Of a stretch of DNA of 64,000 nucleotides, positions 1,181 to 5,819 are shown in pieces. The notes beneath the pieces are model-generated. The model saw nothing but the letters and a program-made list of their open reading frames with translations. It was not told where the DNA came from and ran no database searches. The position numbers and the translations under genes are program-made. Source of the stretch: Clostridia bacterium (lineage in GTDB: Bacteria; Bacillota; Clostridia; Oscillospirales; Acutalibacteraceae); contig JAFQEL010000012.1 in the NCBI GenBank assembly GCA_017399065.1, positions 62,001-126,000 on the forward strand, in the 5' to 3' direction. Positions within the stretch are counted from its first letter, which is position 1. The number at the start of each line of letters is the position of its first letter.

Positions 1181-2530
1181 TCAGATAAGGAAAGCCTTTG
1201 CAAGAGCAAAGTAAATAACGAGTGTAACGATATCGACAAGTGTCGCAATCATCGGACCTGCCATAAGAGCAGGGTCAAGTTTTACTATTTTTGCAAAAAT
1301 AGGAAGTGAGCAACCGATAAGCTTGGCGACGACTATAGCGATAAACATTGCAAGTGAAACAACAAGGAAAACCTTAAGGTCACCCTCACTGAATATATAC
1401 ATTCGCAGTATATTTGCAAGACCTAACACGACACCGCAGACCGCGGCAACGCGAAGCTCTTTGAATACGATTTTAAAGTAGTCTTTTATTTCAATTTCGC
1501 CGACTGCAAGACCGCGTATGATAAGGGTTGAAGCCTGACTGCCCGCGTTACCGCCCGTACCCATAAGCATAGGCATTGAAGCGGTAAGAGCGACAAAGCC
1601 CGAAAGCAGGGTTTCGTAGCCCTCGATAATCATGCCTGTAAACGTGCCCGATATCATAAGGATAAGCAGCCAGACGATGCGGTTGCTTGCAAGCTTGAAT
1701 ATACCTGTTTTGAGGTATTCATCGTCTGACGGGGTCATAGCCGCCATTTTTTCAAAGTCCTCTGTGACCTCTTCTTCCATAACGTCAACAGCGTCGTCGA
1801 TTGTAACTATACCGACAAGTCGGCCCTCGTTATCGGTTACAGGCACACTCAGAAGATCGTACTTACGGATGATGTCGGCAACATATTCCTGATCGTCAAG
1901 TGTATTCACACTGATGAGCGAAGCATCCTCCTCCATGATTTCGCTCAGAAGAGTGCTGTCTTCGTTAAAAATGAGCTCACTGAGGTTGATTGTGCCGACA
2001 AGATGACGTGCCTTGTCGATACAGTAACAGGTGTAGATTGTTTCTTTATCGATACCTGTGCGACGGATATTTTCGATAGCCTGTGCAACTGTAAGGTTGT
2101 CGTGAAGCTGCACCATTTCGATTGTCATAATGCTGCCTGCACTGTTTTCGGGGTAACGCAGGAAGCGGTTGATAAGCTGCCTTGTCTCTTTGTCCGCAAT
2201 TTTGAGAACACGTGTTACAACGCTTGCAGGTACTTCCTCAAGGAAGTCAACCGTATCATCGAGGAAAAGCTCATCGACAAGCTCACTGAGCTCTCGGTCA
2301 GTAATCGAGTTAACAATGTTCATCTGGTCTTCGCTTTCGAGGTAGGCGAAAACCTCAGCCGAAATATCTTTTGGCAGTATACGGAACACAAGAAGCTGCT
2401 GTTTGGGTTCGAGCGAGCTGAAGAATTCGGCTATATCAACCTCATTCATTTCAGAAAGCTCAGATTTTAAAGTACCGAACTTTCCTGCACTCAGCAGCTC
2501 GAAAAGTTCGTCAAAAATCTTTTCATCCAT
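1181..2530 (-). CDS. mgtE: Magnesium transporter MgtE
   Basis: About 449 residues. The start is the ATG at 2530 (MDEKIFDELFELL), because AGAAAGGG lies just upstream; an in-frame ATG at 2572 would lie inside the leader hairpin. Order of domains: N-terminal helical MgtE_N domain (about 1-125), paired CBS domains (about 130-250, including GIVTIDDAVDVMEEE), a plug helix and five membrane helices. The family pore signature GTGGNAGSQAS and the C-terminal DPALMAGPMIATLVDI segment are present. Family role: Mg2+-gated Mg2+ uptake channel in the cytoplasmic membrane, closed by Mg2+ binding to the cytosolic domains. Expression is probably controlled by the structured leader upstream. The GH13 gene follows closely on the same strand. 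Confidence 0.95.
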   Translation of the reverse strand: MDEKIFDELFELLSAGKFGTLKSELSEMNEVDIAEFFSSLEPKQQLLVFRILPKDISAEVFAYLESEDQMNIVNSITDRELSELVDELFLDDTVDFLEEVPASVVTRVLKIADKETRQLINRFLRYPENSAGSIMTIEMVQLHDNLTVAQAIENIRRTGIDKETIYTCYCIDKARHLVGTINLSELIFNEDSTLLSEIMEEDASLISVNTLDDQEYVADIIRKYDLLSVPVTDNEGRLVGIVTIDDAVDVMEEEVTEDFEKMAAMTPSDDEYLKTGIFKLASNRIVWLLILMISGTFTGMIIEGYETLLSGFVALTASMPMLMGTGGNAGSQASTLIIRGLAVGEIEIKDYFKIVFKELRVAAVCGVVLGLANILRMYIFSEGDLKVFLVVSLAMFIAIVVAKLIGCSLPIFAKIVKLDPALMAGPMIATLVDIVTLVIYFALAKAFLI

Positions 2531-2753
2531 AAAAATACCCTTTCTGCATATCGTTCCATGCAGAAAGGGCAATGCAAACTAAATCGGCTCTCTGTTACCC
2601 GATAAGGGTGAGGAGGCCAATGCACGCTGAACCGAGGGCACGGAACGGATGCTGTTTTGTTTTAAAAGCCGAGCAACATAAAGGTATGCTGTCCTTACTG
2701 TCCAAAACAGTTTGCCTCCTTTGATAGAGAATTTGAAGCGATAAAACTTCATC
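2531..2753 (-). promoter_or_regulatory. Structured mgtE 5' leader, candidate riboswitch of unassigned class
   Basis: The predicted transcript runs about 220 nt from the promoter to mgtE. Read on the minus strand, a closing helix pairs 2714-2720 with 2611-2617 (7 bp). Inside it, 2703-2710 pairs with 2652-2659 (8 bp) and 2685-2691 with 2674-2680 (7 bp, 4-nt loop). A final perfect 12-bp hairpin (2558-2569 with 2538-2549, 8-nt loop) contains the ribosome binding site AGAAAGGG in its 3' arm and is followed by TATTTTT, so it could end transcription or block translation. I could not find the conserved M-box (ykoK) segments in it. The structure is seen in the sequence; ligand control is inferred from context. 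Confidence 0.6.
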
Positions 2754-2792: not shown

Positions 2793-5297
2793 TTATTTAC
2801 TTTTTTTAGCCGGAGCCTTTTTTGCTGTTTTCTTTTCTGCTGTTTTTGTTGCGGATTTCTTAGCTGCAGTCTTCTTTTCGGGTTTGGCTGCGGGCTTTAC
2901 TGCAGGCTGAGTATTCCAGATGTTTGCGGCATACTCGTTGATTGCTCTGTCAGCGGCGAATCTGCCTGCACCGGAAATGTTCATAAGTGACATTCTGTTC
3001 CATGTTTCACGGTCTTTCCAGAGCTCCTCTGCCTTAAGCTGAGCCTGACGGTAATCGGCAAAATCAGCAAGAACCATATAGGGATCGTGGTAGATGATAG
3101 AAGCACTGACATCGGGGAACATCTTGCCGTTGATACCCTTGTTGATGAAGTCGATAACCTTGTGGATCTCGCTGTTGTTTTCATAGTAGGTGCGGGGATT
3201 ATAATTCGGTTTAAGCGCATTTGCTTCGGGCGTTTTCATACCGAATATAATGATATTCTCTTCGCCTACTGCATCATGGATTTCAATGTTTGCACCGTCC
3301 ATTGTGCCGAGTGTGACTGCACCGTTGAGCATAAGCTTCATATTACCTGTGCCGCTGGCTTCAGTACCTGCAAGTGATATCTGCTCACTGATATCTGCGG
3401 CCGGCATAAGTGCCTCAGCCATTGATACGTTGTAATCTTCAACAAATACAACCTTGAGTCTGCCTCTTACATCGGGGTCAGCATCAATAAGCTTGCCGAG
3501 CTCACAGATGAAGTTGATGATTCTCTTTGCAACTATATATCCGGGTGCAGCTTTTGCGGCAAAGATATATGTGTGCGGTGTAAAATCACCGTCGGGATTT
3601 TCTTTGATTGCAAGGTATTTTGAGACTATCTGAAGTGCGTTGAGGTGCTGACGCTTGTACTCGTGAAGTCGCTTTACCTGAACATCAAAGATTGAGTTCG
3701 GGTCGATTTTTACACCCTGCTTCTTGAAGATAAGCTTTGCAAAACGCTCTTTGTTTGCAAGCTTGATGCTCTCGAGCTTTGCAAGTACAGCCTTGTCATC
3801 CTTGTATTCACGCAGGTTGATAAGCTCATCAGCGTTGTAAGTGAAGCCGTCGCCGATAAGAGAGGTGAGGTAGCCTGCAAGCTCGGGGTTGGACTGATTG
3901 AGCCAGCGGCGGTGAGCAATACCGTTTGTAACGTTTGTGAACTTCTCGGGTGTGTGACGGTAGTAATCGTTGAATACCGTATCCTTGAGAATCTGGCTGT
4001 GGAGTGCGGAAACACCGTTTACACAGTGACCTGCAACAACGCAGAGGTTAGCCATACGGACAGAACCGTTTGCGATAACAGCTGTACGCTCAACATAGTC
4101 AGCATCCTGAGTGATTGACCAAGCGTATCCTCTGTAACGGTTGTCGATTTCCTTTGTAATTTGATAAATTCTGGGAAGCAGACGGCGGAAGAGGTCTTCA
4201 CTCCAGCACTCAAGAGCTTCCTTCATAACTGTGTGGTTGGTGTATGCAACGGTGTTGCTTACAATTCTCCAGGCATCGTCCCAGCCGTAGCCGCATTCAT
4301 CGAGGAAAATTCTCATCAGCTCGGGAATTGCGAGAGTGGGATGAGTGTCGTTGATGTGGATTGCGTTCTTTTCGGCAAAGTTTTCGATTGAGCCGTAAGT
4401 GCGAAGGTGACGTGCAACGATATCCTGAACAGAAGCGGATACGAGGAAATACTGCTGCTTGAGACGAAGGCTTTTACCCTCAGGGTGGTTGTCGGAGGGA
4501 TAGAGCACCTTGCTGATGACCTCAGCCATAGCATTCTGCTCAACAGCCTTGAGGTAGTTACCCTGGTTGAAGTTTTCCATATCAAGACCGGGTGCCTTTG
4601 CAGACCACAGACGAAGCACGCTTACTGCCTTACCGTCCTTACCCGGCACAAAGAGGTCGTAGGGGACAGCCTTGATAGGTGTATAGTCCTTAAGCTCTAC
4701 GTGGTGATAGTGAGTATCCCAGAAATCTTCTACCCAACCTTCAAAACGGATTTCCTGTGCACTCTGCGGACGCTCTACGAGCCATGCTTCACCGCCGGGA
4801 AGCCAGAAATCGGGCATCTCGGTCTGCCAGCCGTCGATAATCTTCTGCTTGAAGATACCGAACTCGTAAAGAATAGAGTAGCCCATACCGTTGTAGCCCT
4901 GAGTTGCAAGACCGTCGAGATAGCAGGCGGCAAGTCTGCCGAGACCGCCGTTACCAAGACCTGCATCGGGCTCACAGTCGTAAAGCTTCTCAAGTTTGAT
5001 GCCGAATGAGGAAAGTGCCTTGTCTATAGTATCGGTAAGGTTGAGGTTGAAGAGGTTGTTCTTGAGAGAACGGCCCATAAGGAATTCCATTGAAAGGTAG
5101 TAAACGCTTTTGGAATCCGTTTTCTTAGCCTCGTGTGCAAATTCCGCTCTGCCCTTGGTGAGCATATCGCGGATAACCATTGCAACAGCCTTGTAATAAT
5201 GCTCATATGTTGCTTCCTCGGGTGTTACGCCGAAAAAGTGTGAAAGTTTGCCGGCGATAAGCTCCTTTGCTTGTGCCGTAGTTAATGAATAATTCAT
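2793..5297 (-). CDS. glgP: Glycogen/starch/alpha-glucan phosphorylase with Lys/Ala-rich tail
   Basis: About 834 residues from the ATG at 5297, preceded by TTGGAGGTTTTGT; an upstream in-frame ATG lies before the ribosome binding site and is rejected. GT35 family: it releases glucose 1-phosphate from non-reducing ends of alpha-1,4-glucans using pyridoxal phosphate and phosphate. The PLP-lysine region EASGTGNMKLMLNGA is intact, as are GNGGLGRLAACYLDGLA and the KRLHEYKRQ motif. The family core is about 800 residues; here the last 34 residues (about 801-834) are almost only Lys, Ala, Pro and Thr, a basic extension not part of the catalytic fold. A minus-strand TATAAT lies upstream. It sits with mgtE and a GH13 enzyme, suggesting glycogen or maltodextrin turnover. 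Confidence 0.95.
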   Translation of the reverse strand: MNYSLTTAQAKELIAGKLSHFFGVTPEEATYEHYYKAVAMVIRDMLTKGRAEFAHEAKKTDSKSVYYLSMEFLMGRSLKNNLFNLNLTDTIDKALSSFGIKLEKLYDCEPDAGLGNGGLGRLAACYLDGLATQGYNGMGYSILYEFGIFKQKIIDGWQTEMPDFWLPGGEAWLVERPQSAQEIRFEGWVEDFWDTHYHHVELKDYTPIKAVPYDLFVPGKDGKAVSVLRLWSAKAPGLDMENFNQGNYLKAVEQNAMAEVISKVLYPSDNHPEGKSLRLKQQYFLVSASVQDIVARHLRTYGSIENFAEKNAIHINDTHPTLAIPELMRIFLDECGYGWDDAWRIVSNTVAYTNHTVMKEALECWSEDLFRRLLPRIYQITKEIDNRYRGYAWSITQDADYVERTAVIANGSVRMANLCVVAGHCVNGVSALHSQILKDTVFNDYYRHTPEKFTNVTNGIAHRRWLNQSNPELAGYLTSLIGDGFTYNADELINLREYKDDKAVLAKLESIKLANKERFAKLIFKKQGVKIDPNSIFDVQVKRLHEYKRQHLNALQIVSKYLAIKENPDGDFTPHTYIFAAKAAPGYIVAKRIINFICELGKLIDADPDVRGRLKVVFVEDYNVSMAEALMPAADISEQISLAGTEASGTGNMKLMLNGAVTLGTMDGANIEIHDAVGEENIIIFGMKTPEANALKPNYNPRTYYENNSEIHKVIDFINKGINGKMFPDVSASIIYHDPYMVLADFADYRQAQLKAEELWKDRETWNRMSLMNISGAGRFAADRAINEYAANIWNTQPAVKPAAKPEKKTAAKKSATKTAEKKTAKKAPAKKSK

Positions 5298-5354
5298 ACA
5301 AAACCTCCAAAAAAGTTGGTAAAAAACTATGTCTTTTATGACATCTGTATACAT

Positions 5355-5456: not shown

Positions 5457-5819
5457 TTATATGCTTGCTACGCTGCTGTCGAGTCCGAAACTGACGCTGA
5501 GAGCCTTATTGATTCTGCTCATATCTACTGCGTCAAGATTGCCCATTTTTTCTTTGAGCCGTCTTTTGTCAATTGTTCTTACCTGCTCCAAAAGCACGAT
5601 TGAATCTTTGGCAAGACCGCAGCCGTCTGCATTGACTTTGATATGAGTCGGTAAGCCTGTTTTATATTTCTGGCTTGTTATTGCGGCGGCTATTACGGTC
5701 GGGCTGTATTTATTGCCGACATCATTCTGTACGATAAGTACGGGGCGTATTCCACCCTGCTCAGAGCCGACGACGGGGCTTAAATCTGCATAATATATTT
5801 CTCCTCGTTTTACATTCAT
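5457..5819 (-). CDS. mazF: MazF/EndoA-type mRNA endoribonuclease, no antitoxin visible
   Basis: 120 residues, the normal MazF/PemK length. Reads MNVKRGEIYYADLSPVVGSE with GGIRPVLIVQND and AAITSQ, placing Arg25 and Thr48 exactly where Bacillus subtilis EndoA has its catalytic pair, so an active sequence-specific single-strand RNase is expected. In Bacillus and many clostridia the order is lipoprotein-alr-mazE-mazF, with the ribbon-helix-helix antitoxin directly before the toxin. Here the 107 bases upstream hold no credible mazE and the previous gene is a lipoprotein, so alr and mazE seem to be missing locally. The antitoxin may lie elsewhere. Last gene of the nnr operon. Confidence 0.92.
   Translation of the reverse strand: MNVKRGEIYYADLSPVVGSEQGGIRPVLIVQNDVGNKYSPTVIAAAITSQKYKTGLPTHIKVNADGCGLAKDSIVLLEQVRTIDKRRLKEKMGNLDAVDMSRINKALSVSFGLDSSVASI

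Follow-up and report, generated by a model that had tools for sequence, protein, structure and literature searches.

A probable Mg2+-responsive leader-peptide attenuator upstream of mgtE in a Clostridia bacterium

mgtE is a classic target of the M-box, which raises the question of what controls an mgtE gene whose structured leader carries no recognizable M-box. Such a gene (1181–2530, minus strand) is found in the window, the 64,000-nt stretch of DNA of a gut-dwelling Clostridia bacterium that was analyzed here. It encodes a genuine MgtE Mg2+ channel with MgtE_N, CBS, and MgtE domains (Pfam PF03448, PF00571, and PF01769) and is preceded by a leader of about 220 nt (approximately 2753–2531, minus strand), whose transcription presumably starts near 2753. 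A consensus scan recovered the clear promoter described in the original prediction as TTGACA-17-TAAAAT at 2788–2760 (minus strand, 11 of 12 consensus matches), and TTGACA together with a TAAAAT-like box recurs in most leaders of the genus. The leader is unusually stable, with a minimum free energy (MFE) of -77.6 compared with -54.3 +/- 4.4 for dinucleotide shuffles (z -5.35). At its end, a 15-pair hairpin resembling an intrinsic terminator (2571–2536, minus strand) is followed by TTTTT, with a T-tail that extends to 2531. The 3' arm of this hairpin contains the mgtE Shine-Dalgarno (SD) sequence AGAAAGGG (2538–2544), located 7 nt upstream of the ATG at 2530, so that the proposed hiding of the ribosome binding site was confirmed. 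Leader and hairpin are kept in the genus, and the view of a conserved cis-regulatory mgtE leader with an expression platform is upheld. Upstream, a reading frame resembling glycogen phosphorylase with a lysine/alanine-rich C-terminal tail (2793–5354, minus strand) adjoins the mgtE promoter region with its end, and a small protein like PemK/MazF-type toxins is encoded at 5457–5819 (minus strand).

An Rfam search of the window yielded no family reaching threshold and none near threshold in the leader. The M-box core that had been reported as missing is indeed absent: with the cutoff relaxed to E<=10, the leader yielded no match to RF00380, significant or otherwise, and neither did 20 sister leaders at the same cutoff; the window's genome has none either. 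The M-box model does find matches elsewhere in the family, in 26 of 200 genomes, and among the more distant mgtE genes, about 19 have an M-box upstream.

What had been overlooked is that AAAGGAGG (2722–2715, minus strand; invariant in eight members of the genus) constitutes the SD sequence of an open reading frame inside the leader. This upstream ORF (uORF; 2705–2595, minus strand) starts with TTG 9 nt downstream, comprises 36 codons plus TAA, and encodes MDSKDSIPLCCSAFKTKQHPFRALGSACIGLLTLIG. It is open in 8/8 species of the genus with a near-constant length (35–39 codons) and stop position; the peptide reads MDSKDSIPLCCSxFKTKQ..., and its stop lies just upstream of the terminator. The SD sequence and the first codons belong to a near-invariant 70-nt block common to the eight species (2722–2650, minus strand; AAAGGAGGCAAACTGTTTTGGACAGTAAGGACAGCATACCTTTATGTTGCTC....TTAAAACAAAACAGC in the alignment), for which the MFE fold predicts helices 2704–2710/2652–2658 and 2685–2691/2674–2680. 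In a near relative (L094), ATG replaces TTG and the peptide begins MDGADSIPLRC with synonymous changes; here the two helices of the block are gone, while MDxxDSIPLxC is kept. An alternative frame starting from CTG in the same block was rejected, as it has no standard start and stays open for varying, non-conserved lengths. Small DNA matches in other genomes (L009–L013) likewise turned out to be unrelated. One of them is the dnaA start region of another genus (L009:1501–1544; AAAGGAGGCAAACCGTTTTGGA), which begins with TTG, is nearly identical to the region around the uORF start, and illustrates a working TTG start at such spacing.

Beyond the genus, leader DNA can no longer be aligned, yet an SD-led uORF with an acidic N-terminus is found at the same position, followed in the same order by the P1 parts described below and the terminator/SD hairpin. 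Examples of these N-termini among the relatives, which include Candidatus Limimonas of the family Acutalibacteraceae, are MDSKDGGNATVPVRL, MEGDATPRSC, MEPDGCCFRL, MDSGDSNPKG, MGSSDIPNPRSR, and MSSDGSYGQR. Among 147 distinct family mgtE leaders without a detected M-box, 121 (82%) contain an SD-led uORF of 15–50 codons, compared with 13.6% of shuffles, and in 54 of the same leaders, residues 2–6 include two or more acidic ones (0.5% expected from shuffles). Asp or Glu occupies residue 2 in 129 of 189 selected uORFs (68%) versus 91 of 1574 SD-led null ORFs (6%) from the same loci, with a p of about 1e-87 that overstates independence because the sequences are related. The same test covered 16 corA uORF peptides, chosen by eye from the list of such uORFs, and the null set still holds some corA uORFs, which makes the comparison conservative. 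In a control-gene test restricted to long upstream gaps, 3 of 138 other genes scored versus 31 of 51 mgtE genes, and one of the three was a mis-called mgtE. Proline is common at residues 5–9 and arginine near residues 10–12. A Pro-Arg-Ser motif at codons 8–12 (L021, L023, L028, L030, L037, L040, and L045) is almost always written CCN-CGA-AGT, so that the conserved arginine is repeatedly encoded by CGA, usually a rare codon.

Selection acts on the peptide and not on the RNA alone. Over 61 non-overlapping nearest pairs, on which this result rests (within the genus alone there are too few changes to tell), pN/pS for codons 2–12 is 0.52 in frame (bootstrap 0.43–0.62), compared with 1.16 and 1.14 when read out of frame, and changes are in excess at third positions (189 versus 110/112). 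The same analysis revealed neither in-frame constraint nor third-position excess in codons 13–24. The selected peptide therefore comprises about a dozen residues, with little or no protein-level selection on the remaining codons. In the window, the constrained stretch corresponds to codons 1–12 (2705–2670, minus strand; D2, D5, and P8), which are putatively ribosome-destabilizing. Within the genus, synonymous divergence of uORF codons 2–19 is only 0.13 compared with 0.60 in mgtE, at similar pN; the RNA sequence is thus constrained beyond the peptide in this genus. An attenuator with overlapping structures should show such synonymous constraint, but it would fit an aptamer too.

The original prediction closed the leader with an AGGAGGC/GCCTCCT helix. 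Both segments (2720–2714 and 2617–2611, minus strand) are present, complementary, and kept in the genus, with one partner going to G-U in two species; the MFE fold uses other pairs, and AGGAGG is the ribosome-binding site of the uORF. This pairing (P1; 2720–2611) thus joins the uORF SD (2714–2720) with a distal uORF segment (2611–2617), and an analogous SD:distal-uORF pairing is better than in shuffles in 52% of 151 leaders. P1 competes for GGCCTC with a second hairpin, P4 (2620–2613/2592–2584, minus strand), in which GGCCTC pairs with GAGAGCC just downstream and which overlaps the uORF stop. P4 covaries in the genus: 4 of its 8 pairs show double compensatory changes, 97% of cells are paired, and 0 of 500 shuffles reach its covariation score. 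The helix pairs of the invariant block hardly vary, so that covariation is uninformative there, and no RNA core is common to the genera. In equilibrium folding with ribosome-occluded segments, the very stable terminator never opens, and a comparison of its arms with upstream segments yielded no consistent complementary partner and no consistent antiterminator.

We consider the leader likely to be a leader-peptide attenuator that senses Mg2+ through ribosome destabilization. The ribosome would initiate at the strong SD and UUG of the uORF, whose first codons, Met-Asp-Ser-Lys-Asp-Ser-Ile-Pro, belong to the phylum-wide acidic and usually proline-containing N-termini before Mg2+ transporter genes. 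With ample Mg2+, the uORF would be completed, the terminator/SD-burying hairpin would form, and mgtE would be off. At low Mg2+, the ribosome would be destabilized on the acidic/Pro codons and drop off early, upon which the distal uORF RNA (the P1/P4 switch) may fold differently and mgtE may be transcribed and translated. A ribosome completing the ORF would have to open P1, and one leaving at codons 5–8 would not; P1/P4 might act on the terminator through a kinetic effect during transcription. Computational support comes from the short ORF that, led by an SD, lies ahead of a Mg2+ transporter gene, from its peptide-level constraint, from the acidic/proline residues near its N-terminus (also enriched across the family), from the tie to Mg2+ transporters, and from P1/P4 and the hairpin that buries the mgtE SD. 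Drop-off at low Mg2+ and the regulatory direction are suggested by the targets and by MgtL and MgtQ.

Comparable uORFs occur before mgtE in other families of the class (MDSGPLPGYF, MDSDPLPGKY, MDSSPLPEGK, and MDTGPVPRKS) and in the rest of the phylum (MDSDGYPRKS, MSSDPYPSCIK, and MDADPRSMN), where MgtE is 37–44% identical; some mgtE leaders outside the family contain no detectable uORF. Furthermore, at 13 of 30 family corA loci, a uORF with an MNPDP, MSPDP, MSADP, or MKPDP start lies about 70–200 nt upstream. As both mgtE and corA carry such uORFs, the motif goes with two Mg2+ transporter families. The corA uORF loci (L300, L304, L306, L308, L310–L313, L315–L317, and L320) have starts close to the EPDP of E. 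coli MgtL. No CorA match was found in the window's genome and no mgtE in the viral contigs searched. Tandem mgtE genes were observed in several genomes of the class (G548:C20, G595:C60, G528:C21, and G654:C32). The idea of the uORF as a simple M-box replacement is too simple, as several M-box leaders also carry a downstream uORF, for example MDTGSTGGIVPRSS (L210) and the above MDTGPVPRKS (L264). Tandem arrangements of an M-box and an acidic uORF were seen in the mgtE leaders of L189, L207, L208, L210, L212, and L264, which suggests two Mg2+ sensors in series. On balance, we lean towards the broader reading that acidic/proline leader peptides with Mg2+-dependent drop-off are a phylum-wide control in Bacillota_A, situated before mgtE and corA, where they often take the place of the M-box and sometimes follow it. 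The full-text literature within reach, which excludes subscription papers, preprints, and supplements, describes no leader peptides of this kind ahead of mgtE or corA in Bacillota, and priority is therefore not established.

Several other explanations deserve to be weighed. A riboswitch restricted to the genus, with the 70-nt block as aptamer for Mg2+ or another ligand and the ORF incidental or secondary, would account for the near invariance of the block at the nucleotide level, the low synonymous divergence, and the stable fold, but it appears unlikely, as relatives without the block keep a uORF in the same place with the same kind of N-terminus, selection acts at the peptide level, and neither a covarying core common to the genera nor an Rfam match exists. 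The riboswitch aptamer of unassigned class that was originally proposed is thus not borne out: what is conserved most strongly between genera is a short acidic ORF and not an alignable RNA core. The proposed link to metals is probably right. The other option put forward, a very divergent M-box, is refuted at the level of sequence and covariance models and retains a next to negligible probability: although mgtE genes elsewhere in the family do have M-boxes, the searches of this leader, its sisters, and the genome were empty, and where an M-box is present, the uORF can follow as a separate element.

The remaining alternatives accept the uORF and differ in its role. The attenuator could respond to a signal other than Mg2+, such as charged tRNA, slow CGA/proline codons, or the general translation rate, in line with the common proline and arginine positions and with the Pro codons implicated for MgtL (PMC11552253); we regard this as rather improbable, given that the most conserved feature is the acidic residue 2, no run of one amino acid occurs, and the two targeted transporter families are unrelated. 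Alternatively, the uORF product could be a small protein that acts on MgtE in trans; this has precedents in the Mg2+-transporter regulators MgtR and MgtU of Salmonella (PMC8092293) and would agree with the conserved N-terminus, yet it is very unlikely because constraint is confined to codons 2–12 and the remainder is free in sequence and length.

A handful of enterobacterial leaders are known in which the ribosome itself senses Mg2+ while it translates. Should mgtE and corA be preceded by the same device throughout the Clostridia and their relatives, the stability of the ribosome would serve bacteria in general as a Mg2+ sensor, one that arose repeatedly or is very old, and the widely assumed M-box control of mgtE in Bacillota would need revision. 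The proposed attenuation is directly testable by reporter.

Among the known systems, the M-box (RF00380) shares with the present leader a terminator platform and the Mg2+ control of mgtE that is proposed here, and it occurs elsewhere in the family, in other genera, but its aptamer is lacking here and elsewhere it can coexist upstream of the uORF. In the B. subtilis mgtE riboswitch, NusG pausing matters (PMC12288461). As in some relatives studied here, a conserved uORF follows an M-box at pe20 of M. tuberculosis (PMC12810186), although the mycobacterial peptide has an unknown role and is not a case of acidic-leader attenuation. The Thioalkalivibrio mgtE motif (PMC11109978) is likewise a structured leader before mgtE and a proposed riboswitch candidate; it belongs to another lineage, has another structure, and the passage describing it mentions no uORF.

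The enterobacterial leader peptides are closer. At low Mg2+, E. coli MgtL is aborted at EPDP, and mgtA can then be transcribed (PMC11282234; PMC11552253); two acidic residues alone are insufficient (PMC11282234), and D2/D5/P8 of the window peptide is weaker than EPDP. Like mgtL of E. coli and Salmonella mgtA, the uORF is short, precedes a Mg2+ transporter gene, has an acidic/proline N-terminus, and its completion is expected to be inverse to transporter expression. mgtL differs in its Rho-dependent terminator and shorter peptide, compared with an intrinsic-type terminator/SD hairpin and 20–45 codons here, where the targets are MgtE and CorA in Bacillota; homology is not demonstrable and the resemblance is one of composition only. 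Salmonella mgtQ, whose Asp2 and Glu5 are needed for mgtB expression (PMC8092293), shares acidic codons 2 and 5 (Asp2/Asp5 here), a strong AGGAGG SD, and a sequestered downstream SD, but it has 8 codons, is intergenic within an operon, and exerts translational control only. corL of enterobacterial corA, finally, also starts with UUG (PMC11552253) and is translated inversely to transporter expression, and differs in being Rho-dependent and in having only one proline and fewer acidic residues.
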